Below, in pieces: positions 5,468 through 61,959 of a stretch of DNA of 64,000 nt. The translations under genes were made by a program, and so were the position numbers. Source of the DNA: Pegoplata infirma (lineage: Eukaryota; Arthropoda; Insecta; Diptera; Anthomyiidae); NCBI GenBank assembly GCA_963921195.1, contig CAWUER010000500.1, forward strand, positions 62,001 to 126,000. The letters run 5' to 3'. Below the pieces are notes generated by a model, which had not been told where the DNA came from, made no database searches, and saw only the letters and a program-made list of their open reading frames with translations. How positions within the stretch are numbered: position 1 is the stretch's first letter; each line of letters opens with the position of its first letter.

Positions 5468-6466
5468 CAGTACCGGTTTAACCATTAGGGCACACTGGGC
5501 ACGTGCCCAGGGCCCCCGACCCTACGGGGGCCCTGAAAGGCCAAAAACGTATGAGAATTTTTCGATGACAGAAGTTCTTAAACTCATTTTCCTGCATAAA
5601 TGGTCTCAGGTTCTGAGACATTTGTCGTATAGAAAAAGTCTCAGGTTCTGAGACATTCGTCGTATAGAAAAAGTCTCAGGTTCTGAGACATTTTTCGTAT
5701 AGAAGAGGTCTCAGATTTAGATTTTTTTCTTATAAAAAAAAATCAAATTTTAGAATCTAAGAACCTTTTCTCATAGAAAAATTCCATTTTCCTATAGAAA
5801 AAGTCTCAGATTCTAAGACATTTTTCCTTTATAAAAAGTCTCAGATTCAAAGACCATTTATCTTTAATAGAGTCTTTGAGTCTGAGATCTTTTTCCTTAA
5901 GAAAAAGTCTCTGAGTTTGAAACCTTTTTACTATAGAAAAGTCTCAGATTCTGAGACCTTTTTCATATAGAAAGAGTCTTTGATTCTGCTGCCTATTTCC
6001 TATAGAAAGAGTCTTAGATTATGAGATCATTTTCTTATATAAAGTTTCAGAAATCTCAGATTTTTCCCATTAAAAAGTCTCAGATTCTGAAACCTTTTTA
6101 CCCCAGAAAAAGTCTCAGATTCTGAGACCTTTGTCAGATTCTGTGACATTTTTCTTATAAAAAAAGGTTTCCTATAGTATCCGATCCTGAGAACTTTTCC
6201 CAATAGAAAAGGTCTCAGATTTTGATTCCTTTTTTCGATAGAAAAAGTATCTGGTTCTGGGACCTTTTTCTTGTAGAAAAGAAAAAATACTTCGAGCTAG
6301 AATAACTCTACTCACAATATATATATATTTTAATTTTTTGTAGGTCCTAATTCTTAAAACAAAAATAGAACAATCTTTTTTTCTTGTGTTGCAACTTTTA
6401 ACTTTCCAAGGAGCCCCCAAATTCTTGTGTGCCCAGGGCCCCCCGCCATACCTTAAGACGGCCCTG
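5468..6466. mobile_element. hAT-like non-autonomous element (999 bp) with exact 8-bp duplication
   Basis: The terminal repeats begin CAGTACCGGTTTAA on the left and CAGGGCCGTCTTAA as read inward from the right. They are followed on both sides by GC-rich text containing GTGCCCAGGGCCCCC or its equivalent. The target duplication TATTTATC is exact at 5460-5467 and 6467-6474. There is no transposase. The interior is almost entirely the TCTCAG minisatellite. Confidence 0.9.
5585..6285. repeat. Degenerate minisatellite, about 36-bp unit 'GTCTCAGATTCTGAGAC + TTTTT..ATAGAAAAA'
   Basis: There are roughly 18 decayed units. Each contains a short palindrome (TCTCAGATTCTGAGA) followed by a T-rich stretch and TATAGAAAAA. 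It fills the inside of the hAT-like element. Arrays with the same core occur at 12535-13270 and 33945-34570, inside elements with different ends. Confidence 0.85.
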
Positions 6467-8441: not shown

Positions 8442-10186
8442 CCCGGGTAAAAAATTTAATATGATTTCATACACCAAATATAGTTAGGTAAAATGTACTA
8501 AATTTAATTGTTTTAGGGTTAATTAACTACATTTTTTTACTGAAACTAAAAACAATTAACTATGATACCAAAAACATACATAAGTTATTTTTACTGAAAA
8601 TGTAGTTGACCCGAAAAAAACAACTACCATTGTGGTTAGTTTTACCGCAAACCTTTACTTAGGCCTTATAATAATTCCACTGTGCTACAGTGAAAAAATA
8701 CTTCTAATGTGACATAGGTTCTTGGTTTTGTCGAGGAGATCACAAAAATGCCCATTTAACTTGCCTAACACCCTCAAATTTTAGAGTTATTGTCAAAAAA
8801 CGTTTTTTTGGGACTTTGCTCACTAAACCTTGTGTAGTTCAGAAAATTTTCGACCGATTTTAAATTTTTTAACTGTTTTGGATAGAAGAAGGATAGGGCT
8901 TTCCATGTGTGTGAATTGGTCTACACATATAAGAAAGATATCTATTGATTTTTTCCATAATATATAATTTTTTTGTTATTTTTTGAAAATTTTTCGAGTT
9001 TATCGATTTTTTTCTGCTATAGTTCGTTTAACAACCTTTATATTTATAAACATATTTTTAAAGAAAATTTAGTTGTGAATTCGATGAGCTTTATCATGTA
9101 AAAATCAAATAAGAATTGACAGAGTTGTGATAATTTTTCTAAAAAAGAAAATTAAGATTTTTCAGGAAATCGCCATTCAGACAACCCAGGCAAAAAATAT
9201 AAATTTATCATAAGAGGTCATGTACAATATTTTTAAAGGTTTTTGGCACGCTGAATCCGAATCTGGCCTTTAAATTGCTTTATCGCGTCAGGTTTTTGAG
9301 ATATTAAACATAAATTGATATATCAAAAACTTAATAAGATAGCGCAATTTCAAGGTCAAATTCAAATTCAGGGGGCCAAAAACCTTTAAAATAATGATAT
9401 GGGTTGTCCGAACGGCAATTTCATGCAAAATCTTAATTTTATTTTTTAGAAAAATTATCACAACTCTGTCAATTGTTATTCGATTTTTTCGGCATAAAAC
9501 TCATCGTATTCACAATTAAACTTTCTTTAAGAATACGTTTATAAATATAAATATTGTTGACAGAACTATAGCAGAAAAAAATCGATAAACTCAAAATTTT
9601 TTAAAAAAATAACACAAAAATTAGATATTGTTTAAAAAATCAATACATATCTTTCTTAAATGTATAGACCAATTCACACACATAAAAAGCTCTATATTTC
9701 TTCTATCCAAAACAGTTAAAAAATTTAAAATCGGTGGAAAACTTTTTAAGTTACACGTGGTTTAGTGAGAAAAGTCCCAAAAAAACGTTTTTTTTGACAA
9801 TAACTTTAAAATTTGAGGGTGTCTGGCAAGTTTGATGGACATTTTTGTGATCTTTTCGACGAGACCTACAAACAACCTTAATTACCTCATTTCAAAATTA
9901 TATCGATTTTGTGTTTTTTGTAGCACAGTGTTATTTTTAAAATTGAATTTACTCAATTTGATACACAAACTAGTTGATGTTTTTGTAATTGATTCCAAAA
10001 CAACTACATTTTTAGTTTTTTAACCGGCATTGTCAGTAAATTTTAACTAAAAATTTGTTAAAGTTTGAAAAAAATTTTAGAAAAGCTATTGACTTCAACA
10101 TAATTTCACATGATCGTATACAACTAATATATGATTGTATTATTAAAATAGAAATATGAGGGTCTGTGGACATATTTTTACTCGGG
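8442..10186. mobile_element. CCCGGGTAAAAA-ended element, interrupted by a CACTG foldback
   Basis: The ends are CCCGGGTAAAAAATTT on the left and TTTTTACTCGGG on the right, an inverted pair. No target duplication is obvious. The flanking internal sequence contains decayed TTAGTTAACTACATTTTT-like text on both sides. The ends resemble those at 2934-5381 and 31147-32054. Confidence 0.5.
8678..9930. mobile_element. CACTG-ended foldback element, copy A
   Basis: The ends are CACTGTGCTACAGTG on the left and GTAGCACAGTG on the right. The two halves are inverted copies of each other for about 600 bp: GTCAAAAAACGTTTTTTTGG near 8790 is answered inverted near 9780, and the AAAATCGATAAACTC text is mirrored. 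The flanking triplets are TTC and TTA, a decayed 3-bp duplication. Copy B (38313-39599) has exact TAA duplications. CACTR termini with a 3-bp duplication fit the CMC/CACTA group; that placement is inference. There is no transposase. Confidence 0.8.
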
Positions 10187-12315: not shown

Positions 12316-13545
12316 TAGGGTTTGCAATGCGATTTTAACCGTAACCGTAACGGCGGTTAATCGCACTATTTAACCGTAACCGTAACCGCATAAAAAATTC
12401 TGCGGTTACGGTTAATTTTAATAACATAAGATTCGAAGAACAAAAGAGATTTTTTTAGAAAAAACAATAAAAAAAGGAACAAAGAATAATAAAAAATTTA
12501 AAATGTACAGATAAATAAATGCCAAAGAATATGAAACTTTTTCTATTGCAAAAATATTTCAGAATCTGAAAATTTTTGTGTGGAATAAATGTCTCAGATT
12601 CTGAGACAGCTTCTTATAAAAATATGCCTCAGAGTCTGGAACTCTTTCTTTAGAAAATATCAGAGTCTGAAAAATTTTTTATCTAAACAAAATTTATTCT
12701 ACAGAACTCTGAGAGTTCTGTAGAATAAATTTCTCAGATTCTGAGACAGTTTTTAATAAAAATATGCCCCCAGAGTGTGGAACTCTTTCCTTCGAAAATA
12801 TGCCTCAGAGTCTGAATAATTTTCAATTGCAAAAATGTTTCAGAGTCTAAAACTTTTTCTATAGAAAAAAATGCTCAGAATCTGAAACAGTTTTTCATAA
12901 AAAATATGTCCCAGAATCTAAGACCTTTTCTTTAGAAGAATATTTCATAATCTGAGACTTTTACTACAGAACAAATTTCTGTTTTTCTACAAAAAAAAAT
13001 TTAAAATCTCAGACTTTTGCTATAGAAAAATTTCTCAGTGACAGAACCATTTTCCAAAAAAAAAATACAGATATTAAAGACTATTTAAAAGCAATCCCTA
13101 GAATCCAATATTCTTTTTTAACAAAAAATGGCTATAAATCTGAAAATTTTTGAAGTGAAAAATTTCTCTGAATTTGAAAATTGTTCAATCGAAAAAATGT
13201 CACAAAATCTATTGCTTTTTCTACAGAAAAAATGTTACAGATGCTGATACTTTTTCAATATAAAAATAAAATTAATTTTATTTTGAATTATTATTTTTGT
13301 TGTTTAAAAGGGACGAAAAACTTTTTTTATAACTTTATTCCACTAAAACTCAAAAGCAATATCCTGCATTGTCTATATTTTACATAAAATCAGTAATGTA
13401 ATTCTATCATACATTTTTATTAATCAAAAAAATAATTAAATTAAAATTATTTTAAAAGAGTGCGGTTAACCGTTAACCGCGGTTAATCGCTTGAATTTTA
13501 ACCTTAACCGCGGTTAAGCAAAACTGCGGTTAATTGCAAACCCTA
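12316..13545. mobile_element. hAT-like element (1230 bp) with GGTTAACCG subterminal repeats
   Basis: The terminal repeats are TAGGGTTTGCAAT and, inverted, TAGGGTTTGCAAT. The target duplication ATCGGTAT is exact at 12308-12315 and 13546-13553. Clusters of AACCGTAACCG/GGTTAACCG motifs lie just inside both ends. The interior is the TCTCAG minisatellite. There is no transposase. Confidence 0.92.
12535..13270. repeat. TCTCAG minisatellite, second array
   Basis: About 19 degenerate units of roughly 38 bp, with a core like TTTCTCAGATTCTGAGACAG followed by TTTT..ATAGAAAAAAT. It has the same core as 5585-6285 and 33945-34570 but sits in a different hAT-like shell. Confidence 0.85.
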
Positions 13546-13553
13546 ATCGGTAT

Positions 13554-14821
13554 ATCCATTAGGGTAGATATTAACATACAATAATATTGGACCTGTCTGT
13601 AGGACAACGGCTTCGGGTTCCTTTTTGATTTGAAAATCGGAAAATTCCGAACAAAGTGAAAAAAAATATTCTTAGTTTTTTTGCTTAAAATACTTACTAG
13701 TTTATATTCCGACATTACATAAAATGTGTTTTTAGGGTAAAAATTAATTTCAAATAACAGCAGAGACTAAATTTAGTAATATGATAATTAAAAATATACA
13801 TCTTCTCAACACTGAGCCAATATTACGTTATATTTTCCGAAAAAAACTAATTAAAAATATTTCTTTTTGCAAAACTATGGACCAAAAAAAAAATTCGTGT
13901 GATTAGAAAACTCACGAAACAATTGTAAGTAAATTCTATTCTGAAAAGTAACAAATGTTTAAAATCAGAAACTCTATGGGTATTTATTTGGCGAATATAT
14001 AATATCCGAAGAGATAAAGTAGAGTTAACATAAATACTTGTAATTGTTGATTAATTTAGAGGACAATAAATGACCTCGAACTAGAATAAACTCTTGTTCA
14101 TTGAATTTTATAAAAATAAATTTTTGATTGTGTGTTTTTAAACAATTTTCGTTAATTTTCATATTTTTTTTTCTTTTCTTCTAGGTAAGTGCATTTTACT
14201 ATTCCATGATATTTAAGGTAATTATTAAAGAGTGTGTTCACAAAAAAAAAAAAAAAAATTAATTAAAAAATTCGTAGATTTAATTAAAAATTAATTAAAT
14301 ATGGATCAATCACTAAAATGCGGATATAAATTAAAAATATTTGTATGTCGTTAACTAAAAATAAAAGGATATTTAGTTAAATAAAAACTTAATACCATAA
14401 ATTAAAAAATTTAATTAATATTAAAAAAAAAATAATTAAAATTTTAATTATATAAATTAAAAATTTAATTTAAAAAAAAAGTTTGAAACAAATTAAAATT
14501 TTAATTGTATTAATTAAAAAAAAATAAAAATAATTATTTTTTTAAAAAATAAACTATTTAAAAAAACATTGTTTTTTAAATAAAAAGGTTTAAAAAAAAA
14601 TATTTTTTTCAAAATTTACCAAATACATGTATGCCGTAAAGACATAGTCGGTGAGAAAATTTTATAAAGTTCGGTATAAACCTTTTATATACCACAAAAT
14701 CTTTTTTAAATTTCAACTCAGTAAAACTGAAATAAATGTTTAAAAAAATCGGCAGTTTTTGGAATTTAGAAAAACTGTAAATGCAGTTGTGTAAACAAGA
14801 CCTTGAACCATCACTGAGCAA
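13554..14821. other. AT-rich region with low-complexity TTAATTAAA run
   Basis: No gene seen. 14250-14600 is a degenerate (TTAATTAAAA)n tract similar to 28770-28960. A solo TCGAACTAGAATAAAC end, related to the 7298-7482 hairpin family, lies at 14070-14092. Confidence 0.55.
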
Positions 14822-15544
14822 CCCAGCAAAACTTTGGTAATGGGTAGTGATTATATAACACATTACCAGGTAATGTATATAACTTATTTGTAGCATTATT
14901 TTATGATGTTTTACCAAACATTTGTTCCACAACGTATTATTTTCAAGTGAAAAATAATGCATTACTAATAATTTGCTACGTAATGCATGATTATTGGAAA
15001 AAATGTATTTCATATTTATTATTTCTAAACAATAAATCATGAATGACTTATATTTGGTTACATTATGTATTATTTGAAAGTTTGAAATAATGTATTATTT
15101 ATAATTGGATGCATAATGCATTACAATAACATAACAAATAATTGTTTTATAAAAAAAGGCATAAGTTTAAACTAGAGATGGGCTCACGACAGGAAATTTC
15201 TAACGACACACACTCACGAGCATATTTTATCTACTTACAATCACGTGAGTAAATTTAATACAAAATTACTTTTTCACTACTCGTAACACCTTATATAGTA
15301 TCTTCTGGTATGCTATATTCTTTCATTTCTCGTAACCTATAAACTATCATATATTTTACACCTTACTCGTATTCTTCGTTATAAATTTATGACTTATTTT
15401 ATACCTTACTGGTATTCTTTGTGATAATGTGGATGCATTACTTTGAGTCTCATCGCCTGTTAAAATCATCAATGCTGCAATGTATAAAATAAGGGATCCT
15501 ATACCTTATTTTATACCTTATTTGGTATTCTAAGTTTTGCTGGG
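14822..15544. mobile_element. CCCAGCAAAACTT-ended element, copy 1 (723 bp)
   Basis: The ends are CCCAGCAAAACTTTGG and, inverted, CCCAGCAAAACTTAGA. Copy 2 (49457-51997, interrupted) is about 95% alike by eye, and copy 3 (54816-55069) is a fragment in the opposite orientation. The interior has repeated TTATACCTTA and TAATGCATTA motifs and a fossil end of the TAGAGATG hAT-like family at 15174. No target duplication was identified, so the superfamily is unknown. The 143-residue minus-strand frame is also found decayed in copy 2 and shows no known domain. Confidence 0.7.
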
Positions 15545-16049
15545 AATGCTTAAGGATTACGCCACTTTATCCGTAAAAGTTACAGAGGGTTAAAGTTGAA
15601 AAATCGATAAAAATGGCTTGAAATAATCCATAGTTTTTACCTTCTTTCGCTTTTTTTTAAGTTCTCCTTATATTTCAATCAGGGTACGTATTTGCTCACG
15701 AAAGAAGCTTTCATTTTGGCACATTCATTCATTTTTTGAAAATGAATAATATTTGTTTTTATTTTCATTTCATATTATGTGCTTTGAAAAAATTCGATTG
15801 TTTTCATTTTTCGTTGCTTGTGTGTGTGCAGTGAAAGAAGAAGTAATCAACTGAGAATTGAATGAATGAAACTAAAAAAATAATTTCATTTTCATTTATT
15901 ATTTCAGTTTCATTTATATTTCAGTTTCATGTGCTTGAGATTTTTATACTTCGTGCACATGAAAGTGGCGCACGAAATGAGCCAGTTTCATCTGCATTTC
16001 AGCTTCAGTCTCACGGAAAAAATTTTTTACCGAAAATTTAATATTTTAC

Positions 16050-17040
16050 GATTTTGTTTTTTTTTCGAACACCAAGCCATTTAGAACAAACAATTTCTCG
16101 AAAATCTTTAAATTTACAAAAAAAATTAAATTTTTTACAAAAATTTTAATTTTTTAAAATAAATCAATTTTTTTAAAAAATATTAATTATTCAAAATTTC
16201 TCAAAAAAGTCAAATTTTTTCAAAAATATTTCAGAAAAAAAAATAATTTTTTAAAAAAATAGATTTTTTCAAAAAAAAAAAAAATTAGTTTTTTGAAAAA
16301 CTTTGATTTTTCAAAAAAGTTTTTTTTTCAAAAAAAAAATGATTTTTTCAAAAAAAGTTGATTTTTTCAAAAAAAGTTGATTTTTTCAAAAAAAGTTGAT
16401 TTTTTCAAAAAAAGTTGATTTTTTCAAAAAAAGTTGATTTTTTCAAAAAAAGTTGATTTTTTCAAAAAAAATTAAATTTTTCAAAAAAAGGTTAATTTTT
16501 TCAAAAAAATTTAATTTTTAAAAAAAAAATTAATTTTTTCAAAAAAAATTTAATTTTTCAAAAAAGTTGAAATTTTTAAAAAAAAATTTAATTTTTCAAA
16601 AAAAAGTTAATTTTTTCAAAAAAAATTTAATTTTTCAAAAAAGTTGAAATTTTTAAAAAAAAATGTTAAATAAGTTATATTAACTTCAATTTTTCAAAAA
16701 AAAGTTAATGTTTAAAAAAAAAAAAAATTTTTAAAAAACTTGAAAGTTTTAAAAAAGTTTAATTTAAAAAAAAAAAAAATTAAGCATTTCAACTTGATTT
16801 AAAAAAAAAAAAAATATTTTTCAAAAAGTTGAAATTAAAAAAAAAAAAAATAATAAAAAAAGTAGAATTTTTCAAAACCAAATCAAAAAAGTTGAATTTG
16901 AATAAAAAATATGTTTTTTTTTTGAATAATAGTTTTTTTTTTGCAAAAAATTTGTTTTTTAATTTTTTTTTTAATTTAAAATTTAGCGAAGATAAAATTG
17001 ATCTATGATCGCTAAAGCGGTTATGAAGTGAAAAAATAAC
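16050..17040. repeat. Poly-A/T tract with 19-bp tandem units, left outer arm
   Basis: Degenerate TTTTTTCAAAAAAAGTTGA text. Around 16340-16460 the 19-bp unit GATTTTTTCAAAAAAAGTT is repeated six times almost exactly. It is shared, inverted and shorter, with 26307-27000. Confidence 0.85.
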
Positions 17041-17056
17041 AAAATGAAGTTCTTTT

Positions 17057-19106
17057 GCTTGTATCTTGATTATTTAAAAAGTTATTTGCAATTTAAAAAT
17101 TGAGCAAAGATAAATTAATCTAATGTAAAAATGATAAAAAATATCATTAAATTTTGTCTATCCCGATTAGTTTTAAATATATAATTTAAATACCAAATTA
17201 ACGTTGTTTTGCTTGTATTTTAATTATTTAAGAAGTTATTCGCCATTTAAAAATCTAGAAAAGAAAAATTTGATCTAGAACCGCTAAGGGGTTATGCAGG
17301 GGTGAAAATGACTAAATCATCCATTTGCTCTACATCGATAATTTTTTGAGATATAATTAAAATAACAAATTAACGTCCTTTTGCTTGTATTTTGATTATT
17401 TAAGAAGTTATTCGCAATTTAAAAATCTAACGAAGAAAAAAATAATCTGGGATCGCTGAAGGGCTTGTAAACGGGTAATAATGATAAAAAATATCATCCA
17501 TTTGTCTCTATCCCGATTAGTTTTTAAGATATAATTTAAATACCAAATTAATGCTCTTTTGCTTGTATTGTAATTATTAAAGAAGTTATTCGCAATTTAA
17601 AAATCTAGTAAAGAAAAATTTGATCTGGAACCGCTAAAGGGGTTACGCAGGGGTGTAAATGACAAAAATATCATCCATTTTGCTCTACATCGATTATTTT
17701 TTGAGATATATTTAAAATACCAAATTAACGGCCTTTTGCTTGTATTTTGATTATTTAAGAAGTTATTCGCAATTTAAAAATCTAGCAAAGAAAAATTTGA
17801 TATGGAACCGCTAAAGGGGTTACGCAGGGGTGAAAATGACAAAACTATCATCCATTTTGCTCTACATCGATTATTTTTTGAGATATAATCAAAATACCAA
17901 ATTAACGTCCTTCTGCTTGTATTTTGATTATTTAAGAAGTTATTCTCAATTTAAAAATCTAGCAAAAAAAAAAATTGATCTGGAACCGCTAAAGGGGTTA
18001 CGCAGGGGTGAAAATTACAAAAATATCATCCATTTTGCTCTACATTGATTATTTTTTGAGACATAATTAAAATACCAAGTTAACGTTCTTTTGCTTGTAT
18101 TTTGATTATTTAAGAAGTTATTCGCAATTTAAAAATCTAGCAAAGAAAAATTTGATCTGGAACCGCTAAAGGGGTAACGCAGGGGTGAAAATTACAAAAT
18201 TATCATCCATTTTGCTCTACATCGATTATTTTTTGAGTTATAGTTAAAATACCAAATTAACGTCCTTTTGCTTGTATTTTAATTATTTAAGAAGTTATTC
18301 GCAATTTAAAAATCTAACAAAGAAAAATTTGATCTGGAACCGCCAAAGGGGTTACGCAGGGGTGAAAATGACAAAAATATCATCCATTTTGCTCTACACT
18401 GATTATTTTTTGAGATATAAATAAATAACCAAATTAACGTTCTTTTGCTTGTATTTTGATTATTTAAGAAGTTATTCGCAATTTAAAAATCTAGCAAAGA
18501 AAAATTTGATCTGGAACCGCTAAAGGGGTAACGCAGGGGTGAAAATTACAAAATTATCATCCATTTTGCTCTACATCGATTATTTTTTGAGTTATAGTTA
18601 AAATACCAAATTAACGTCCTTTTGCTTGTATTTTAATTATTTAAGAAGTTATTCGCAATTTAAAAATCTAGCAAAGAAAAATTTGATCTGGAACCGCTAA
18701 AGGGGTAACGCAGGGGTGAAAGTGACAAAAATATCATCCATTTTGCTCTAAATCGATTATTTTTTGAGATATAAATAAAATACCATATTAACGTTCTTTT
18801 GCTTGTATTTTGATTATTTAAGAAGTTATTCGCAATTTAAAAATCTAGCAAAGAAATATTTGATTTGGAACCGCTAAAGGGGTTACGCAGGGGCTGAAGG
18901 GCTGAAGGGCTTATGAACGGGTAATAATGATAAAAATATCATCCATTTTGCTCTACATCGATTACTTTTTGAGATATAAATAAAATACCAAATTAACGTT
19001 CTTTTGCTTGTATTTTAATTATTTAAGAAGTTATTCGCAATTTAAAAATCTAGCAAAGAAAAATTTGATTTGGAACCGCTAAAGGGGTTACGCAGGGGTG
19101 AAAGTT
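17057..19106 (+). repeat. 177-bp satellite block 1, forward, about 12 units
   Basis: The motif GCTTGTATTTTGATTATTTA recurs at 17738, 17915, 18093, 18270, 18447, 18624 and 18801 with spacing 177-178. The first units (17057, 17211, 17383) are shorter and diverged, as expected at an array edge. Two unit types alternate: one with CCGCTAAAGGGGTTACGCAG, one with TCGCTGAAGGGCTTGTAAAC. The 72-residue frame at 17830-18048 is satellite sequence, not a gene. Confidence 0.95.
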
Positions 19107-19239
19107 ATGAGGAAATCCTCGTAATTTTACGAGAATTTTACCTACCTCCTATTTTACGAGAAAATCACGAGATTTTTTGGAAACTTTACAATGTTTTTTT
19201 TTTTACATTCCAAATATCAAGTTATAATTAATTATAACT
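19107..19239. repeat. Hinge between satellite blocks 1 and 2
   Basis: Non-satellite spacer with CTCGTAATTTTACGAGAATT, CCTACCTCCTATTTTACGAG and TATAATTAATTATA. Similar ACCTCCTATTT and CTCGTAAAATA text occurs in TTTACAAAAT-type elements at 54035 and 56355. The hinge is therefore probably a captured fragment of that family. Satellite orientation flips here. Confidence 0.8.
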
Positions 19240-21590
19240 CAAAAAATAATCGATGTAGAGCAAAATGGATGATTAATTTGTCATTCTTACCCCTGCGTAA
19301 CCCCTTTAGCGGTTCCAGATCAAATTTTTCTTTGCTAGATTTTTAAATTGCGAATAACTTATTAAATAATCAAAATACAAGCAAAAGGACGTTAATTTGG
19401 TATTTAAGGTATATCTTAAAAACTAATCGGGATAGAGACAAATGGATGATATTTTTGTCACTTTCACCCCTGCGTTACCCCTTTAGCGGTTCCAGATCAA
19501 ATTTTTCTTAGTTAGATTTTTAAATTGCGAATAACTTCTTAAATAATCAAAATACAAGCAAAAGAACGTTAATTTGGTATTTTAATAATATCTCAAAAAA
19601 TAATCGATGTAGAGCAAAATGGATGATATTTTTGTCATTTTCACCCCTGCGTAACCCCTTTGGCGGTTCCAGATCAAATTTTTCTTTGTTAGATTTTTAA
19701 ATTGGGAATAACTTCTTTAATAATTACAATACAAGCAAAAGAGCATTAATTTGGTATTTAAATTATATCTTAAAAACTAATCGGGATAGAGACAAATGGA
19801 TGATATTTTTTATCATTATTACCCGTTTACAAGCCCTTCAGCGATCCCAGATTATTTTTTTCTTCGTTAGATTTTTAAATTGCGAATAACTTCTTAAATA
19901 ATCAAAATACAAGCAAAAGAACGTTAATTTGGTATTTTAATTATATCTCAAAAAATAATCAATGTAGAGCAAAATGGATTATATTTTTGTCACTTTCACC
20001 CCTGCGTAACCCCTTTGGCGGTTCCAGATCAAATTTTTCTTTGTTAGATTTTTAAATTGCGAATATCTTCTTAAATAATCAAAATACAAGCAAAAGAACG
20101 TTAATTTGGTATTTTATTTATATCTCAAAAAATAATCGATGTAGAGCAAAATGGATGATATTTTTGTCACTTTCACCCCTGCGTAACCCCTTTAGCGGTT
20201 CCAAATCAAATATTTCTTTGCTAGATTTTTAAATTGCGAATAACTTCTTAAATAATCAAAATACAAGCAAAAGAACGTTAATATGGTATTTTATTTATAT
20301 CTCAAAAAATAATCGATTTAGAGCAAAATGGATGATATTTTTGTCACTTTCACCCCTGCGTTACCCCTTTAGCGGTTCCAGATCAAATTTTTCTTTGCTA
20401 GATTTTTAAATTGCGAATAACTTCTTAAATAATTAAAATACAAGCAAAAGGACGTTAATTTGGTATTTTAACTATAACTCAAAAAATAATCGATGTAGAG
20501 CAAAATGGATGATAATTTTGTAATTTTCACCCCTGCGTTACCCCTTTAGCGGTTCCAGATCAAATTTTTCTTTGCTAGATTTTTAAATTGCGAATAACTT
20601 CTTAAATAATCAAAATACAAGCAAAAGAACGTTAATTTGGTTATTTATTTATATCTCAAAAAATAATCAGTGTAGAGCAAAATGGATGATATTTTTGTCA
20701 TTTTCACCCCTGCGTAACCCCTTTGGCGGTTCCAGATCAAATTTTTCTTTGTTAGATTTTTAAATTGCGAATAACTTCTTAAATAATTAAAATACAAGCA
20801 AAAGGACGTTAATTTGGTATTTTAACTATAACTCAAAAAATAATCGATGTAGAGCAAAATGGATGATAATTTTGTAATTTTCACCCCTGCGTTACCCCTT
20901 TAGCGGTTCCAGATCAAATTTTTCTTTGCTAGATTTTTAAATTGCGAATAACTTCTTAAATAATCAAAATACAAGCAAAAGAACGTTAACTTGGTATTTT
21001 AATTATAACTCAAAAAATAATCGATGTAGTGCAAAATGGATGATATTTTTGTCACTTTCACCCCTGCGTAACCCTTTAGCGGTTCCAGATCAAATTTTTC
21101 TTTGTTAGATTTTTAAATTGCGAATAACTTCTTAAATAATCAAAATACAAGCAAAAGGACGTTAATTTGGTATTTTAATTATATCTCAAAAAATAATCGA
21201 CGTAGAGACAAATGGATGATATTTGTATCATTATTACCCGTTCATAAGCCCTTCAGCGATCCCAGATTATTTTTTTTTCGTTAGATTTTTAAATTGCGAA
21301 TAACTTCTTAAATAATCAAAATTCAAGCAAAATGACGTTAATTTGGTATTTTAATTATATCTAAAAAAATAATCGATGTAGAGCAAAATGGATGATTAAT
21401 TTGTCATTCTTACCCCTGCGTAACCCCTTTAGCGGTTCCAGATAAAATTTTTCTTTCCTAGATTTTTAAATTGCGAATAACTTCTTAAATAATCAAAATA
21501 CAAGCAAAAGGACGTTAATTATGGTATTTTAATTATATCTCAAAAAATAATCGATGTAGAGCAAAATGGATGATTAATTTGTCAATTTCT
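19240..21590 (-). repeat. 177-bp satellite block 2, reverse, about 13 units
   Basis: The unit is inverted relative to block 1 (AATACAAGCAAAA recurs near 19377, 19555, 19731, 19909, 20087, 20264 and so on to 21501). A stretch of about 840 bp (20195-21030) is an inverted copy of 18050-18890, including private variants such as CCATATTAACG and the CACTGATTATT unit. Confidence 0.95.
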
Positions 21591-21849
21591 TTTTTTTTTA
21601 AATATAACTTATTTAATTTTTTTTTTTAAATAAATTAAATTTTTTTAAAAAATTCAACTTTTTTAAAAAATTCAACTTTTTTGAAAAATTACTTTTTTTT
21701 AAAAAAATTAACTTTTTTTTGAAAAATTAATTTTTTTAAAAAAAAGTAATTTTTCAAAAAAGTTGAATTTTTTAAAAAAGTTGAATTTTTTAAAAAAATT
21801 TAATTTATTTAAAAAAAAAAATTAAATAAGTTATATTTAAAAAAAAAAG
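21591..21849. repeat. Palindrome centre, A/T-homopolymer hairpin
   Basis: A perfectly self-complementary run of AAATATAACTTATTTAATTT, AAAAAATTCAACTTTTTT and TTTGAAAAATTACTTTTTTT text around 21719. The same text occurs at 26315-26420, in the outer arm, so the centre is outer-arm material brought inside. Confidence 0.9.
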
Positions 21850-24205
21850 AAATTGACAAATTAATCATCCATTTTGCTCTACATCGATTATTTTTTGAGA
21901 TATAATTAAAATACCATAATTAACGTCCTTTTGCTTGTATTTTGATTATTTAAGAAGTTATTCGCAATTTAAAAATCTAGGAAAGAAAAATTTTATCTGG
22001 AACCGCTAAAGGGGTTACGCAGGGGTAAGAATGACAAATTAATCATCCATTTTGCTCTACATCGATTATTTTTTTAGATATAATTAAAATACCAAATTAA
22101 CGTCATTTTGCTTGAATTTTGATTATTTAAGAAGTTATTCGCAATTTAAAAATCTAACGAAAAAAAAATAATCTGGGATCGCTGAAGGGCTTATGAACGG
22201 GTAATAATGATACAAATATCATCCATTTGTCTCTACGTCGATTATTTTTTGAGATATAATTAAAATACCAAATTAACGTCCTTTTGCTTGTATTTTGATT
22301 ATTTAAGAAGTTATTCGCAATTTAAAAATCTAACAAAGAAAAATTTGATCTGGAACCGCTAAAGGGTTACGCAGGGGTGAAAGTGACAAAAATATCATCC
22401 ATTTTGCACTACATCGATTATTTTTTGAGTTATAATTAAAATACCAAGTTAACGTTCTTTTGCTTGTATTTTGATTATTTAAGAAGTTATTCGCAATTTA
22501 AAAATCTAGCAAAGAAAAATTTGATCTGGAACCGCTAAAGGGGTAACGCAGGGGTGAAAATTACAAAATTATCATCCATTTTGCTCTACATCGATTATTT
22601 TTTGAGTTATAGTTAAAATACCAAATTAACGTCCTTTTGCTTGTATTTTAATTATTTAAGAAGTTATTCGCAATTTAAAAATCTAACAAAGAAAAATTTG
22701 ATCTGGAACCGCCAAAGGGGTTACGCAGGGGTGAAAATGACAAAAATATCATCCATTTTGCTCTACACTGATTATTTTTTGAGATATAAATAAATAACCA
22801 AATTAACGTTCTTTTGCTTGTATTTTGATTATTTAAGAAGTTATTCGCAATTTAAAAATCTAGCAAAGAAAAATTTGATCTGGAACCGCTAAAGGGGTAA
22901 CGCAGGGGTGAAAATTACAAAATTATCATCCATTTTGCTCTACATCGATTATTTTTTGAGTTATAGTTAAAATACCAAATTAACGTCCTTTTGCTTGTAT
23001 TTTAATTATTTAAGAAGTTATTCGCAATTTAAAAATCTAGCAAAGAAAAATTTGATCTGGAACCGCTAAAGGGGTAACGCAGGGGTGAAAGTGACAAAAA
23101 TATCATCCATTTTGCTCTAAATCGATTATTTTTTGAGATATAAATAAAATACCATATTAACGTTCTTTTGCTTGTATTTTGATTATTTAAGAAGTTATTC
23201 GCAATTTAAAAATCTAGCAAAGAAATATTTGATTTGGAACCGCTAAAGGGGTTACGCAGGGGTGAAAGTGACAAAAATATCATCCATTTTGCTCTACATC
23301 GATTATTTTTTGAGATATAAATAAAATACCAAATTAACGTTCTTTTGCTTGTATTTTGATTATTTAAGAAGATATTCGCAATTTAAAAATCTAACAAAGA
23401 AAAATTTGATCTGGAACCGCCAAAGGGGTTACGCAGGGGTGAAAGTGACAAAAATATAATCCATTTTGCTCTACATTGATTATTTTTTGAGATATAATTA
23501 AAATACCAAATTAACGTTCTTTTGCTTGTATTTTGATTATTTAAGAAGTTATTCGCAATTTAAAAATCTAACGAAGAAAAAAATAATCTGGGATCGCTGA
23601 AGGGCTTGTAAACGGGTAATAATGATAAAAAATATCATCCATTTGTCTCTATCCCGATTAGTTTTTAAGATATAATTTAAATACCAAATTAATGCTCTTT
23701 TGCTTGTATTGTAATTATTAAAGAAGTTATTCCCAATTTAAAAATCTAACAAAGAAAAATTTGATCTGGAACCGCCAAAGGGGTTACGCAGGGGTGAAAA
23801 TGACAAAAATATCATCCATTTTGCTCTACATCGATTATTTTTTGAGATATTATTAAAATACCAAATTAACGTTCTTTTGCTTGTATTTTGATTATTTAAG
23901 AAGTTATTCGCAATTTAAAAATCTAACTAAGAAAAATTTGATCTGGAACCGCTAAAGGGGTAACGCAGGGGTGAAAGTGACAAAAATATCATCCATTTGT
24001 CTCTATCCCGATTAGTTTTTAAGATATACCTTAAATACCAAATTAACGTCCTTTTGCTTGTATTTTGATTATTTAATAAGTTATTCGCAATTTAAAAATC
24101 TAGCAAAGAAAAATTTGATCTGGAACCGCTAAAGGGGTTACGCAGGGGTAAGAATGACAAATTAATCATCCATTTTGCTCTACATCGATTATTTTTTGAG
24201 TTATA
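21850..24205 (+). repeat. 177-bp satellite block 3, forward, about 13 units
   Basis: It is the mirror image of block 2 with no mismatch in the segments I compared by eye. Units run from about 21930 to 24060. Confidence 0.95.
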
Positions 24206-24340
24206 ATTAATTATAACTTGATATTTGGAATGTAAAAAAAAAAACATTGTAAAGTTTCCAAAAAATCTCGTGATTTTCTCGTAAAATAGGAGGTAGGTAA
24301 AATTCTCGTAAAATTACGAGGATTTCCTCATAACTTTCAC
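24206..24340. repeat. Hinge between blocks 3 and 4
   Basis: Inverted copy of the 19107-19239 hinge, with TATAATTAATTATA, CTCGTAAAATAGGAGGTAGG and AAATTACGAGGATTTCC. Confidence 0.85.
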
Positions 24341-26306
24341 CCCTGCGTAACCCCTTTAGCGGTTCCAAATCAAATTTTTCTTTGCTAGATTTTTAAATTG
24401 CGAATAACTTCTTAAATAATTAAAATACAAGCAAAAGAACGTTAATTTGGTATTTTATTTATATCTCAAAAAGTAATCGATGTAGAGCAAAATGGATGAT
24501 ATTTTTATCATTATTACCCGTTCATAAGCCCTTCAGCCCTTCAGCCCCTGCGTAACCCCTTTAGCGGTTCCAAATCAAATATTTCTTTGCTAGATTTTTA
24601 AATTGCGAATAACTTCTTAAATAATCAAAATACAAGCAAAAGAACGTTAATATGGTATTTTATTTATATCTCAAAAAATAATCGATTTAGAGCAAAATGG
24701 ATGATATTTTTGTCACTTTCACCCCTGCGTTACCCCTTTAGCGGTTCCAGATCAAATTTTTCTTTGCTAGATTTTTAAATTGCGAATAACTTCTTAAATA
24801 ATTAAAATACAAGCAAAAGGACGTTAATTTGGTATTTTAACTATAACTCAAAAAATAATCGATGTAGAGCAAAATGGATGATAATTTTGTAATTTTCACC
24901 CCTGCGTTACCCCTTTAGCGGTTCCAGATCAAATTTTTCTTTGCTAGATTTTTAAATTGCGAATAACTTCTTAAATAATCAAAATACAAGCAAAAGAACG
25001 TTAATTTGGTTATTTATTTATATCTCAAAAAATAATCAGTGTAGAGCAAAATGGATGATATTTTTGTCATTTTCACCCCTGCGTAACCCCTTTGGCGGTT
25101 CCAGATCAAATTTTTCTTTGTTAGATTTTTAAATTGCGAATAACTTCTTAAATAATTAAAATACAAGCAAAAGGACGTTAATTTGGTATTTTAACTATAA
25201 CTCAAAAAATAATCGATGTAGAGCAAAATGGATGATAATTTTGTAATTTTCACCCCTGCGTTACCCCTTTAGCGGTTCCAGATCAAATTTTTCTTTGCTA
25301 GATTTTTAAATTGCGAATAACTTCTTAAATAATCAAAATACAAGCAAAAGAACGTTAACTTGGTATTTTAATTATGTCTCAAAAAATAATCAATGTAGAG
25401 CAAAATGGATGATATTTTTGTAATTTTCACCCCTGCGTAACCCCTTTAGCGGTTCCAGATCAATTTTTTTTTTTGCTAGATTTTTAAATTGAGAATAACT
25501 TCTTAAATAATCAAAATACAAGCAGAAGGACGTTAATTTGGTATTTTGATTATATCTCAAAAAATAATCGATGTAGAGCAAAATGGATGATAGTTTTGTC
25601 ATTTTCACCCCTGCGTAACCCCTTTAGCGGTTCCATATCAAATTTTTCTTTGCTAGATTTTTAAATTGCGAATAACTTCTTAAATAATCAAAATACAAGC
25701 AAAAGGCCGTTAATTTGGTATTTTAAATATATCTCAAAAAATAATCGATGTAGAGCAAAATGGATGATATTTTTGTCATTTACACCCCTGCGTAACCCCT
25801 TTAGCGGTTCCAGATCAAATTTTTCTTTACTAGATTTTTAAATTGCGAATAACTTCTTTAATAATTACAATACAAGCAAAAGAGCATTAATTTGGTATTT
25901 AAATTATATCTTAAAAACTAATCGGGATAGAGACAAATGGATGATATTTTTTATCATTATTACCCGTTTACAAGCCCTTCAGCGATCCCAGATTATTTTT
26001 TTCTTCGTTAGATTTTTAAATTGCGAATAACTTCTTAAATAATCAAAATACAAGCAAAAGGACGTTAATTTGTTATTTTAATTATATCTCAAAAAATTAT
26101 CGATGTAGAGCAAATGGATGATTTAGTCATTTTCACCCCTGCATAACCCCTTAGCGGTTCTAGATCAAATTTTTCTTTTCTAGATTTTTAAATGGCGAAT
26201 AACTTCTTAAATAATTAAAATACAAGCAAAACAACGTTAATTTGGTATTTAAATTATATATTTAAAACTAATCGGGATAGACAAAATTTAATGATATTTT
26301 TTATCA
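24341..26306 (-). repeat. 177-bp satellite block 4, reverse, about 11 units
   Basis: Mirror image of block 1. The 72-residue frame at 25390-25608 is the exact mirror of 17830-18048, which shows the arms agree at nucleotide level there. The mirror ends at 26306, one unit short of the left edge. Confidence 0.95.
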
Positions 26307-27000
26307 TTTTTTTAAAAAAATTAAATTAAATTTTTTTAAAAAATTCAACTTTTTTAAAAAATTCAACTTTTTTGAAAAATTACTTTTTTTTAAAAAAATT
26401 AACTTTTTTTTGAAAAATTAATTTTTTTTTGAAAAATAAATTTTTTTTGAAAAAAACATTTTTTTTTTGAAAAAATCACCTTTTTTTGAAAAAATCAACT
26501 TTTTTGAAAAAATCTACTTTTTTTGAAAAAATCAACTTTTTTTGAAAAAAATTAACTTTTTTTGAAAAATTTAAGTTTTTTTTAAAAAATTAACTTTTTT
26601 TTGAAAAATTAATTTTTTTTTGAAAAAATCAACTTTTTTGAAAAAAACAATTTTTTTTGAAAAAATCACCTTTTTTTAAAAAAATCAACTTTTTTGAAAA
26701 AATCAACATTTTTTGAAAAAATCAACTGTTTTTAAAAAAATTAACTTTTTTTGAAAAATTTAAGTTTTTTTAAAAATTTCAACTTTTTTGAAAAAATTAA
26801 CTTTTTTTTTGAAAAATACAACTTTCTTTAAAAAATTAAAGTTTTTCAAAAAACAAATTTTTTTTTTTTTGAAAAAATCAACTTTTTTAATTTTTTTTTT
26901 TTTTTGTAAAATTCAGCTTTTTTTTTGAAAAACTGAAGTTTTTTAAAAAACATTTTAATTTTTTTAAAATTTTAAACTTTTTTGAAAAATTAGCTTCGGC
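26307..27000. repeat. Poly-A/T tract, right outer arm
   Basis: TTTTTTGAAAAAATCAACTT-type tandem text, the inverted counterpart of 16050-17040 but about 300 bp shorter and with a different unit order. The two outer arms have therefore diverged by slippage while the satellite core has not. Confidence 0.85.
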
Positions 27001-27358
27001 ACAACCAAAATCGTAAACTATTGAATAAAATAAAAAAATATTTCATCCGTGTGCATGAAACTGAAATACGCTGAAACTAACTTTCATTTTATTTTCGTGA
27101 GACTGAAAATAAAATAAAAATTCTCACGAAATGAAAGTCTCATTTGCCTAAAATGAGAATGAAAATTATTTAAAAGTTTCATTCATTCAATTCTCGTTTG
27201 ATTACTTCTTCTTTCACTGCACACACACAAGCAACGAAAAATGAAAACAATCAAATTATTTCATAGTTCATGAGTGAGATATACAATTTTTATTTTCATT
27301 TTAGAGTTTCATGAAACTGAAAGAAAAAGAGTGAGCAAATACGAAGCCTGATTTCAAT

Positions 27359-33679: not shown

Positions 33680-35015
33680 CACCCAAAAAATTACATAGTT
33701 GATGATTACTATTTTTTCAACTATGTCATAGGTGAAATAGCCCCAACTATGTCATAGTTGATGTGACATAGTTGTTGCTGACTATGTGTCATTTTAATCT
33801 ACAAATTAACTATGAGAAAAGTTAATGACAACGATGTGTGTGATAAACATAGGTAAACAACTAGGCCCATAGTTAAATTTTTTATAAAATTTAATCATAG
33901 TAAATATTTACTATGTAATTTAATAAATAGTTAATTATATAAAAAATGTCTCAGAATCTAAAAATTTTTCTATAGAAACAATGTCTCAGAATCAGAGAAT
34001 TTTTCTTAGAAAAAATGCGTCTGAATTTTTCTATAGAAAAAAATATCATAGAAACTGGAAATTTTTCTGTTAGAAAAATGAATAAGAATCTGATAATTTA
34101 AAAAAAAAAATATATCAGAATCTAAGATTTGTTCTATCGAAAAAATGTCTCAGAATCAAAGCATTTTTCTATAGAAAAAATGTCTCAGAAGCTGAGAATT
34201 TTTCTTAGAAAAAATGTGTCAAAATTTTTCTATAGAAAAAATATGTCAGAATCTAAGAATTTTTTTACAAAAAAATGTTATAGAATCTAAAAATTGTTCT
34301 ATCGAAAAAATGTCTCAGAATCTAAGAATTTTTCTAAAAAAAAATAGATTAAAATCTTAAAATTTTTCTATAGAAAAAAAAAGCATCAGTCTGAGAATTT
34401 TTCTACAGATATTTTTCAGATTGTTAAACATTTTTTCAATAGAAAAATGATCAGAATCTACGACATTTTACTATAGAAAAATCCTCCGATTCAGTATTTT
34501 TCTCAGTACAAAAAGGCTCAGATTCTCTACCATTTTTTTCTATAAAAAATTTTCCGAATGTAAGACTTTTTTATGGAAATACTTAATGAGATTTTTAATT
34601 CAAAAAAACTTCGATTTCGTGACATCAAAGATCTTAATGGCTTCTTTATTTAATCTTAATCTTGATGATTCCATAAAGCTTCTTTAAATATTGACGACAT
34701 CTTTCTTGTCTTCTCGTAATCTGAAAAAAACAATTTCAACAATTCTCTACTTTTTACATATTTAGTTAAACAATACCTTTTTTCCCCAAATTTATTTCAA
34801 ATCGTTAATATTCAGCAACATTATTAAAAAAAAAAACAAATAAAATTTGATGTTTATTTTTTTATTGATTTTCAAATTATTGTCAAAAAAAATGTAAATA
34901 GTATTAAATAACTGAAACCATAGTTGTTATTGATTATCAATAGTTAATTTAAAATTTCTTAAAATTAACTATGGATTTTGTTAACTACTTATGCCACTAC
35001 GTAATTTTTTGGGTG
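33680..35015. mobile_element. TA-flanked CACCCAAAAAATTAC-ended element with TCTCAG array
   Basis: The ends are CACCCAAAAAATTACATAGT and the inverse with CACCCAAAAAATTACGTAGT, with TA at 33678-33679 and 35016-35017. The sister copy of the host element (52015-53680) lacks it at the corresponding point (near 52710), giving a near-empty site. The subterminal motif is AACTATGNCATAGTTG. The interior is the third TCTCAG minisatellite. Confidence 0.8.
33945..34570. repeat. TCTCAG minisatellite, third array
   Basis: About 16 degenerate units of roughly 38 bp, with AAAATGTCTCAGAATCTAAG and AATTTTTCTATAGAAAAAAT text. The core is the same as in 5585-6285 and 12535-13270. Confidence 0.8.
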
Positions 35016-38028: not shown

Positions 38029-38312
38029 AATTTAAAATTCAAATTATATATTCTTAAATTAAGTATGCTAGAACTTCATTTTACGAAGGCTTCATAACGA
38101 AAATTATCATTTTGATCATAAATCATTTTTAATACGAGTTTTTATCAATTTCAACAATGTCGGTTAAAAAAGCTTTTGTAAAAAGTTACAAAAGTATATT
38201 AGTGAAAACAAAGCCAATATTTTTAATAAGTGGAGATTAATTTGGAGTACCTGATACCTTGAGGGGACCAACAAAATTAAAAAGAAAAACTCGGAAAATC
38301 TTGATATAATAA

Positions 38313-39599
38313 CACTGTGCTGCAGTGAAAAAATACTTCTAATGTGACATAGTATAGGTTGTTGGTCTTGTTGAGTAGATCACAAAAATGCCCATTAAAC
38401 TTGCCAGATACCCTCAAATTTTAGAGTTATTGTCAAAAAACGTTTTTTTGGGACTTTTCTCACTAAACCTTTTGTAATTCAGAAAATTTTCAACCGATTT
38501 TAAATTTTTTAACTGTTTTTGATAGAAAAAGGATGGTGCTTTCCATGTCTGTGAATTGGTCTACACATATAAGACAGATATTTATTGATTTTTTCTATAA
38601 AATCTAATTTTTTTGTTATTTTTTGGAAATTTTTCGAGTTTATCGATTTTTTTCTGCTATAGTTCGTTTAACAACCTTTATATTTATAAACATATTTTTA
38701 AAGAAAATTTGATTCTGAATACGATAAGCTTTATCCTGAAGAAATCGGATAACAATTGTCAGAGTTGTGATAATTTTTCTAAAAAAGATAATAAAGATTT
38801 TGCAGGAAATCGCCGTTCAGATATCCCAGGCAAAAAAAAATATTTTATCATAAGAGGTCATGTACAATATTTTTAAAAGTTTTTGGCGCTCTGAATCCGA
38901 ATCTTGCCTTTAAATTGCTCTATCTCGTCAGGTTTTTGAGATATTTCACATAAACTGATATATCAAGAACTTAGTAAGATAGCGCAATTTCAAGGTCAAA
39001 TTCGAATTCAGGAGGCCAAAAACCTTTAAAATAATGATACGTGACCTCTTAGTATGTTCGGTTATTTTTTTTTTTTTTGGGTTATCCGAACGGCAATTTC
39101 AAGCAAAATCTTAATTTTCTTTTTTAGAAAAATTACCACAACTCTGTCAATTGTTATCCGATTTTTTTGACATAAAGCTCATCGTATTCACAATTAAATT
39201 TTTTTAAAGAATACGTTTATAAATATAAATGGTATTAAACGAACTATAACAGAAAAAAATCGATAAACTCAAAAAATTTTCAAAAAATAACAAAAAATTA
39301 GATATTGTTGAAAAAATCAACACATATCTTTTTTATATGTATAGACTAAATCACACACATGAAAAGCCCTATCCTTTTACTATCCAAAACAGTTGAAAAA
39401 TTGAAAATCGGTTGAAAAATGTTTAAGTTACACGTGGTTTAGTGAGAAAAGTCCCAAAAAATCGTTTTTTGGCAATAACTTCAAAATTTGAGGGTGTCTG
39501 GCAAGTTTGATGGGCATTTTTGTGATCTTTTCGACGAGACCTACAACCTTAACTACCTTATTTTAAAAGTATATTTGATTTTGTGTTTTTAGCACAGTG
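38313..39599. mobile_element. CACTG-ended foldback element, copy B
   Basis: The ends are CACTGTGCTGCAGTG and AGCACAGTG. TAA is exact on both sides (38310-38312, 39600-39602). It is about 90% alike to copy A (8678-9930) by eye and has the same mirrored halves. Open frames inside (38613-38876) are mirrored non-coding text. Confidence 0.85.
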
Positions 39600-39649
39600 T
39601 AATATATATAACGGTTCATTGTTTGTATTAAAAAAAATAGTTCATTTAT

Positions 39650-60454: not shown

Positions 60455-60555
60455 CTCCGTGCTATAAATTGAATTACTAAAATTGTTCGTAATAGGTTTG
60501 TTCGTAATAGGTATTTTTGTGATATTTTCATTACCACATCAAGGAAAATGAAAAT

Positions 60556-61959
60556 ATGGACACAAATGATACCGATTTAGTTCGAGGCTCTGCCTCACCG
60601 ACTGGTGCTGGTCCTAGCACTGGTCTTAGGGTTGCGACCTTGAAGTCCGGCCTTGATTCTGGTAGGGGTGCTCAGCCTAATATTGGTGGTAAAAAGAAAA
60701 AGAAACTTAAGCCATCAAAGGTCAGGCACAACCAGAGAAGGCTTTGTTTGAAAATAATTAACAGACTAAGCCAACTCGATGGAACGAAGCTCTCCGAACG
60801 TGAGAAGGCGTCGCTATCATGGGCGAAAGGAGTCATTAAAGAACAGGACAAACTTTCGGCAATGCGCGCATCTGACAAACAGAGCGCTGTTTCGGCCTCG
60901 TCATCGAAGTCTGGTAAAAGGTTGCGCTCGCCCGACGAGAAACCTTTACCTAAAAGATCTAAGGTGACCGGCAACGTCTGGACTCAGTCTTTTAGTGAAG
61001 TGGTGAAAGGTAACTTCGTTAGGGCTGTGATAAACAGGCAAAATGGGGATTGTAGTATTCCAAGGGACAAGTGGAGTTTAGTTGAAACTAAACTAAATGA
61101 AATCTACTATAGGCTTCTTGAGAGTATGCCTGATTTTCTCCCTACTACTGTCAACGCAGGTTGGTATCAGGGGCGAGTAAAACTCGTTGCTTTTGGAAAC
61201 GAAAGATCCGCAGCCGTGTTTAAGGTTGCCATTAGCCAAGTGGGAGAGTTATGGCCTGGAGCCAGACTGGACGTTGTGGAAAAACATGATATCCCCTCGC
61301 AACCCAGAGCTCATGCATGGATCCCAATGGCTACAAGTGACACTGCGGTGATTCTAAAGATGATAAAAGTCTGCAATCCTGACCTTCCAACTCAGAATTG
61401 GCAAATTGCCAGATTGGGTGAGATGGAGGGCGCTCGTCGTCAAGCAGTGGTCTTGGTTAATGAGGAATCGCTTCCGCTTTTAGCCAGGACTGACGGCATT
61501 ATTAGATTTGGCTTTTTTCATATAAGAGTCAATGTCTACAAGGGCGACCAGAAGCCTATTTTGGAAGCAGACAAGCCAGTGGCAGAGTCGGCTGGGGAGG
61601 AGAATCTGGAAAAGGTTGATATTCAGCTGACCGATTCTATGCTGATGGGAGATGCATCTGGCATTTTCGAAACCGAATCTGGCAACGAATGCGACCTCTG
61701 TGATGGCACGGAGGATAAAGCTGATGCCACTATGGGTGACATTCAGGACGAGGCCCATGCAGTGAGGAATTCGGAGAGTTCTGTTGCCTCCGATTCAGAA
61801 CAGATGGGACACATATCTGGCTTATTCGAAACCGAATCTGGGGACGAATGCGACCTCTATGATAACACGGAGGATGAAGCCAATAACACGGTGGTGGAAA
61901 GGATGGTGGAAAAAAAGCAAGATGTTGCGGTTCCTACAAATAAACCTCCATCACTGTAA
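60556..61959 (+). CDS. Retrotransposon ORF1 protein (467 aa)
   Basis: This is the RNA-binding, Gag-like protein of the element. The N-terminus (residues 1-60) is G/S-rich followed by a K-K-K-K-K-L-K basic run (39-45). A basic region S-G-K-R-L-R-S-P-D-E-K-P-L-P-K-R-S-K-V (118-136) may be a nuclear localisation signal. The folded middle (about 140-335) contains W-x-Q-S-F-S-E-V-V and A-R-L-G-E-M-E-G-A-R-R-Q-A-V-V-L-V. This resembles the DUF4780-type domain seen in ORF1s of fly LOA-like elements, an identification from memory. The C-terminus has two acidic repeats of about 26 residues (F-E-T-E-S-G-x-E-C-D-L). No CCHC zinc knuckle is visible, which is unusual for Jockey/I-group ORF1s. The start at 60556 is the first ATG after the leader. 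Its stop lies 38 bp inside ORF2. Confidence 0.88.
   Translation: MDTNDTDLVRGSASPTGAGPSTGLRVATLKSGLDSGRGAQPNIGGKKKKKLKPSKVRHNQRRLCLKIINRLSQLDGTKLSEREKASLSWAKGVIKEQDKLSAMRASDKQSAVSASSSKSGKRLRSPDEKPLPKRSKVTGNVWTQSFSEVVKGNFVRAVINRQNGDCSIPRDKWSLVETKLNEIYYRLLESMPDFLPTTVNAGWYQGRVKLVAFGNERSAAVFKVAISQVGELWPGARLDVVEKHDIPSQPRAHAWIPMATSDTAVILKMIKVCNPDLPTQNWQIARLGEMEGARRQAVVLVNEESLPLLARTDGIIRFGFFHIRVNVYKGDQKPILEADKPVAESAGEENLEKVDIQLTDSMLMGDASGIFETESGNECDLCDGTEDKADATMGDIQDEAHAVRNSESSVASDSEQMGHISGLFETESGDECDLYDNTEDEANNTVVERMVEKKQDVAVPTNKPPSL

Follow-up and report, generated by a model that had tools for sequence, protein, structure and literature searches.

Background

The nearest precedent for the element described here is Tetris of Drosophila virilis and D. 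americana, a non-autonomous foldback element that has no coding capacity and carries ~220-bp tandem repeats in its inverted arms (PMC4079207). Its authors link Tetris to satellite DNA, find its repeats in free arrays of up to 66 copies as well, and suggest a relationship to Mutator from target-site duplications of 8-10 bp. Inverted amplification is attributed to replication errors at short inverted repeats, as formulated in origin-dependent inverted-repeat amplification (ODIRA) and in template-switching models (PMC4689423). Here we analyse a transposon of 11,671 bp at positions 15680-27350 of a 64,000-nt stretch of the genome of the fly Pegoplata infirma (hereafter the window; C493:62001-126000 in an assembly of 1,384,285,496 bases and 813 contigs, which places the element at C493:77680-89350). 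We consider it probable, taking the two statements together, that the element belongs to a mobile, non-autonomous family of hAT-type foldback transposons and that the giant palindrome in its interior arose secondarily, by inverted duplication within an ordinary copy of ~7.0 kb.

Structure of the window copy

The element is bounded by two exact copies of the 8-bp sequence ATTTCAAT and ends in terminal inverted repeats of 20 bp (CAGRGTACGTATTTGCTCAC / CAGGCTTCGTATTTGCTCAC); a search with CAGGNNNCGTATTTGCTCAC at up to 3 mismatches gave only two matches in the window, both of them at the element ends (chance mean 0.03). Its interior consists of inverted arms at 17127-21716 and 21722-26311, which lie 5 nt apart and are 100% complementary (rounded). 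Compared base by base, they deviate in a single mismatched pair (21712/21726) in addition to the five central bases, leaving error-free arms of 4,585 bp that reach out to 17127 and 26311 and a palindrome of 9.2 kb overall. The arms are built of a tandem unit with a period of 177 bp (89% matches; core AAGTTATTCGCAATTTAAAAATCTA), which is matched 48 times in the element (11 + 13 + 13 + 11). Each arm is a forward array followed by a reverse one, and the body as a whole (+ - + -) reads: forward array (11 matches), spacer, reverse array (13), A/T tract, forward array (13), spacer, reverse array (11). The palindrome stops short of the transposon ends, the outer 1.0-1.4 kb of which align at just 74%; to the left of 17127 decayed unit sequence persists, and to the right of 26311 the sequence passes straight into an A/T minisatellite. 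A sequence-only reading of this stretch had described the inverted ends, the exact duplication and the palindrome of 177-bp units correctly, and its count of about 49 units is here revised to 48. The parts of the element are:

15672-15679, unstranded: left target-site duplication ATTTCAAT
15680-15699, +: left terminal inverted repeat CAGGGTACGTATTTGCTCAC
15680-16100, +: left outer domain, inverted homologue of the right outer domain
16107-16980, +: left A/T-rich minisatellite tract of ~19-bp units
17128-19103, +: forward 177-bp array, 11 unit matches
19104-19228, unstranded: non-unit spacer between arrays, 125 bp; in opposite orientation in L036, L037 and L041
19228-21589, -: reverse 177-bp array, 13 unit matches
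21590-21737, +: A/T tract, here the palindrome centre; in L036, L037 and L041 it comes after the reverse array
21631-21737, +: 107-bp exact direct repeat, copy 1
21701-21737, unstranded: short fold-point stem, at which the first switch is proposed to have been primed
21738-26311, -: inverted duplicate of 17127-21700
26312-26321, +: A/T filler at the second junction, 10 nt
26322-26428, +: 107-bp exact direct repeat, copy 2, from which the ordinary right side continues
26322-26989, -: right A/T-rich minisatellite tract
26981-27350, -: right outer domain
27331-27350, -: right terminal inverted repeat CAGGCTTCGTATTTGCTCAC
27351-27358, unstranded: right target-site duplication ATTTCAAT

The possibility that the tandem unit is a copy of the terminal region was rejected, the best match (E 0.056) being unconvincing.

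The family and its ordinary body

The left 311 bp were used as a DNA query against the genome, and the best 40 of 331 candidate places, the window copy included, were scored. The 20 top-ranked of the 39 other places (L031-L050) were taken as relatives, with 10 kb fetched for each. The right end lies within the fetched stretch in 14 of them; the remaining six (L031, L032, L034, L035, L038 and L040) end before the right terminus, with 9.5 kb read of each. For the five relatives with two candidate right ends (L039, L044, L047, L048 and L049) the outer end, which fits the duplication, was chosen.

The exact end motif CAGRSTWCGTATTTGCTCAC occurs 166 times genome-wide (88 forward, 78 reverse; the motif read backwards, as a control, 0 times), corresponding to some 80 copies. 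Nearest-neighbour pairing of the first 100 ends listed placed 80 of them in 40 left/right pairs and left 20 unpaired; the spacing of the 40 pairs has a median of 6,783 bp and a range of 3.1-35 kb (shortest 3,090 bp), the pairing picking the nearer end where a copy has two right ends. Among the pairs formed from the ends listed, spacings of 9.6-12.7 kb are present on contigs C1, C2 and C3. Miniature inverted-repeat transposable elements are compact, high in copy number and below about 1 kb in length, and both the shortest and the median spacing found here lie well above that size. The left 311 bp have a mean pairwise identity of 98.5% among 20 copies, and the right 350 bp show a mean of 92.9% among 15 copies, with L039 (81% to the window copy) and L042 (71%) as outliers.

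A forward array followed by a reverse array was found in 18 of the 20 relatives, and the usual body of the family is thus a single foldback. It has the long inverted arms with internal tandem repeats that characterise foldback elements, with up to 21 unit matches in one arm (L043), and in the window copy the outer domains and A/T tracts are inverted as well. From the end inwards an arm would comprise an outer domain of ~350 bp, an A/T minisatellite tract and the array of 177-bp units, and in an ordinary element the two arrays would meet head to head. The giant palindrome was seen in none of the 20 relatives (14 read to both ends, 6 in part), and we rejected it as a family-wide feature. The longest error-free inverted pairs in relatives measure 584 bp (L036), 279 bp (L041) and 259 bp (L033), against 4,585 bp in the window copy, which also contains an inner error-free pair of 831 bp. 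A palindrome like that of the window should still give kilobase arms within the 9.5 kb read of each of the six partial relatives.

A further right end, with ATTGTTAG after it, lies inside L044, L047, L048 and L049 (at 3496, 8191, 5306 and 4794, respectively, of the turned 10-kb loci). The four copies are inserted at different places, which suggests descent from one ancestor whose end was nested or rearranged.

Origin of the palindrome

Two observations on the window copy suggest that its palindrome was formed by inverted duplication. The 107 bp at 21631-21737, at the palindrome centre, recur exactly at 26322-26428, beyond the palindrome, and from there run on to the right end. Moreover, the centre (237 bp to 21737; 21500-21736 in the window) can be aligned over its full length, at 91-93% identity, with L036, L041 and L037, and in these relatives the matching segment sits near the right end, leading from the reverse array into the tract. 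When 21500-21737 is joined directly to 26429-27350, this model aligns with L036, L041 and L037 (values in this order throughout) with scores of 810, 840 and 858 (15, 9 and 15 mismatches; 256, 236 and 218 gap columns, most of which fall into the A/T tract in the case of L036). For the unaltered right side the scores were 739, 762 and 784 (28, 26 and 33 mismatches; 210, 192 and 168 gap columns), and the centre left unaltered gave 336, 340 and 344 (80, 89 and 89 mismatches; 509, 483 and 511 gap columns). Removal of 4,691 bp leaves ~6,980 bp, close to the median spacing of the family.

Fold-back template switching is the mechanism that fits best. A new strand copying the right A/T tract of an ordinary element of ~6,980 bp would have snapped back at ~21701-21737 and used its own arm as template, in reverse, over ~4.6 kb to 17127; a second switch would have carried it forward again into the A/T tract at ~21631 and on to the right end. 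The outcome would be an element enlarged to 11,671 bp with the features that are seen in the window copy: a palindrome that is nearly perfect, a direct duplication of 107 bp and a target-site duplication left intact. At the turn-back site there is a stem (AAAAAAATTAA, 21701-21711, with TTAATTTTTTT, 21727-21737) with a 15-nt loop, and base 21738, the next after the stem, is the complement of 21700, as if synthesis had been primed by the stem. The second switch, near 26311, passes through a T-run plus 10 nt. If this reconstruction is right, the locus documents, base by base, how a single event can double a mirror-image array.

Several observations weigh against this account. The gain of the joined model is confined to the first ~290 bp; this model and the unaltered right side share one best local match, and the former has more gap columns. 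The array-to-tract junction is closely common to L036, L037 and L041 only; L033, L043, L045, L046 and L050 leave the reverse array via other sequences, and by eye the exit in L043 and L045 is the mirror image of the left array edge of the window copy, extending beyond the point where the palindrome stops. The model does not account for the 10-nt filler at the second junction. The right tract (26322-26989, 668 bp) contains 11 comparable stems, so that the stem at the turn-back site would allow snap-back priming but does not prove it; as such proof we have set it aside. With respect to the ordinary body, L042 has only a reverse array, L047 only a forward one, L039 shows a lone forward unit between two reverse runs, and in six relatives the stretch read reached no right end.

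The most serious alternative, unlikely in our judgement and yet deserving attention, is that the second half of the palindrome (~21738-26428) is an artefact, either a fold-back chimera of a single molecule produced during amplification, library preparation or sequencing, or an assembly error, and that the true locus is an ordinary foldback copy of ~7.0 kb. The arms are free of errors over 4,585 bp, though two sister copies elsewhere in the genome (L031 and L032, see below) differ at 10 gap openings in 9.5 kb, and the locus lies on a contig of 212,502 bp, as opposed to 229-332 Mb for C1-C5. Error-free arms on such a contig outside C1-C5 would be expected of a chimeric molecule too, which counts against our interpretation; the absence of the palindrome from the 20 relatives, six of them read in part, likewise speaks for an artefact. 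On the other hand, an assembler would need a long overlap, which neither the centre nor the second junction offers; a chimera would need two switches in one molecule, with the junctions ~4.6 kb apart; and beyond the second junction the normal order resumes, with the target-site duplication intact. A search with the left flank for an allele or an empty site found full cover in the window itself only, because most of this flank is another high-copy repeat.

Taking the palindrome as an inverted duplication, we may extend the idea to the family as a whole, albeit speculatively and with rather low expectations. Fold-back doubling might be the route by which the family grows, the head-to-head arrays of ordinary copies having been born of the same snap-back copying and the window copy having been caught in a second round. 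The transposon would then make, enlarge and spread inverted satellite-like arrays, and near-perfect palindromes of many kilobases would be a regular, short-lived stage.

Arrays travel with the element

L031 (contig C5) and L032 (contig C3) are 99.84% identical over 9,506 alignment columns (1 mismatch, 10 gap openings). Their alignment starts at element base 1; outside it the two have unrelated flanks and different adjoining 8-mers (TTTAATAC and CTTTACAG). Identity from the first base between unrelated flanks shows that the element takes its arrays along: a DNA transposon made up mostly of a tandem array has very recently brought that array to another chromosome. We suppose that a hAT transposase supplied from elsewhere would move the whole element, arrays included. 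The nearest right end beside L032 implies a length of 10,752 bp, as judged by end pairing, this end lying outside the fetched stretch. Both sisters contain, towards the far right of the stretch read, the same open frames of ~250 aa that look reverse transcriptase-like by eye, and for this reason a nested retroelement fragment seems to have travelled along.

The comparison of individual units agrees with inheritance of the arrays. We considered 319 units (341 minus the 22 in the second palindrome half of the window copy), and 239 of them have their closest unit in a different copy (the L031/L032 pair accounts for 40 of the 239), a proportion on which we rejected growth of arrays in place as the main process. 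Nearest neighbours within the same array are nonetheless frequent (L033, 20 of 23; L036, 8 of 17; L050, 7 of 14; window copy, 11 of 22), and the mean distance between units is smaller within a copy than between copies in 15 of 21 copies. This pattern suggests that the arrays were for the most part inherited in finished form and to some degree grew or were converted in place. The proposal in the sequence-only reading of a mobile, non-autonomous element carrying an array holds for a mobile family whose arrays move, and finds no support for the giant palindrome as the cargo of the family.

Satellite or element-internal repeat

All 20 relatives carry units inside the element (442 matches), and there are 0 matches outside it in 51,214 flank bases (in the six relatives with no right end in the stretch, the element was taken to include all sequence beyond the left end); the window, too, has none outside 15672-27358. 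The simplest reading is that the 177-bp repeat is the transposon's own tandem repeat, comparable to TIR-220 of Tetris, and not a captured centromeric satellite. It appears improbable that the transposon took up an existing palindromic array of centromeric satellite and now distributes it to new loci: the unit length of 177 bp and the movement of the arrays with the element speak for this reading, and the tandem unit is as uniform in length as that of a satellite, but it has against it the confinement of the units to the elements in the flanks read, their presence in every relative and the lack of the palindrome in the relatives. The seeding of satellite DNA suggested earlier has accordingly found no support in the flanks. 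With ~80 copies in one genome that vary in array length and arm identity, the origin and spread of dispersed satellite-like arrays become directly countable.

Probable assignment to the hAT superfamily

Fourteen copies could be read at both ends (the relatives with a right end, minus L037, whose left end is truncated, plus the window copy). Twelve of them are flanked by exact 8-bp duplications, all twelve different, and two (L043 and L044) by a duplication with one mismatch; together with the dispersed end motifs, these are the further insertions with the same ends and different duplications for which the sequence-only reading had called. hAT elements prefer targets of the form nTnnnnAn, and their terminal inverted repeats are short, imperfect and begin with CA-G. 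The left 8-mers have T at position 2 in 18 of 20 cases, A at position 7 in 15 and both in 13, a bias that fits this preference, and the ends of the element, which are of the CAGRG type, conform to the short, imperfect repeats and the CA-G start. No transposase-like frame was recognised by eye among the up to three longest frames of at least 90 aa in each of the 20 relatives, which were inspected with no domain search. P and Merlin are other superfamilies that make 8-bp duplications. The ends might belong to another such superfamily and merely resemble those of hAT elements, but we regard this as very doubtful. In its favour, the hAT assignment draws on ends and duplications and not on a transposase gene, a foldback structure is known in P (Galileo, PMC3573991), and Mutator was proposed for Tetris (PMC4079207); the bias of the left 8-mers and the CAGRG ends argue for hAT.

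Other features of the window

A different high-copy repeat of ~725 bp (14820-15546) ends 133 bp to the left of the element and is 96-98% identical at 40 other places (the best 40 of 3,294 candidates scored). Two copies of a 1.3-kb element (8667-9942 and 38305-39611; 87% identical) have ends like CACTGTGC...GCACAGTG, and dispersed tandem arrays of ~35-bp, GTCTCAG-type units are found at 5603-6151, 12514-12979 and 33936-34481. When ten open frames of the window were scanned against Pfam, a single family came out over the cut-off, DUF4780 (E 1.1e-16), in a frame of 478 aa at 60523-61959; the nearest matches of this protein are 80% and 73% identical, and those from the blow fly Calliphora vicina 41% and 38%, a weak indication of a fly or another insect as host. 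A 260-aa open frame on the minus strand (1766-2548) resembles by eye the C-terminal part of a reverse transcriptase of the type without long terminal repeats, with no Pfam match at E 0.1. Rfam and tRNA scans of the window found nothing.

Comparison with known systems

The statement of the sequence-only reading that no described family has this structure was too strong, given how close Tetris comes to it. Among the open-licence papers listed, judged by titles and the openings of abstracts, none describes a hAT-ended foldback element with satellite-size arrays. The comparisons below refer to the available parts of the cited papers.

With ODIRA the window copy has in common that the fold lies at a short, interrupted inverted repeat, that the junction is palindromic and that distal sequence is retained (PMC4689423). 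However, ODIRA gives an inverted triplication, whereas the third copy here amounts to just 107 bp, too short for triplication of a whole segment, and we rejected ODIRA as the origin. The TCAST transposon-like elements of Tribolium castaneum likewise combine inverted satellite monomers with inverted ends and target-site duplications, but they contain one almost complete monomer and a piece of ~121 bp, do not exceed 1,181 bp, and have a 3-bp duplication and a mariner-like relative (PMC3411249). Galileo is similar in its long inverted ends and internal tandem repeats (~210 bp in one group), and in its variable length; it differs as a member of the P superfamily with a P-type transposase, 7-bp duplications and two or three repeats (PMC3573991).

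Tetris resembles the present family most in its plan, an outer flanking domain followed by satellite-size tandem repeats, variable in number, in both arms. Its repeats form free arrays as well, unlike the units found here, which are restricted to the elements in the flanks read. Its inverted ends measure at most 1,735 bp, and the arm for which alleles were compared has 3 or 4 repeats, whereas the family described here has up to 21 unit matches per arm, 8-bp duplications and hAT-like ends.

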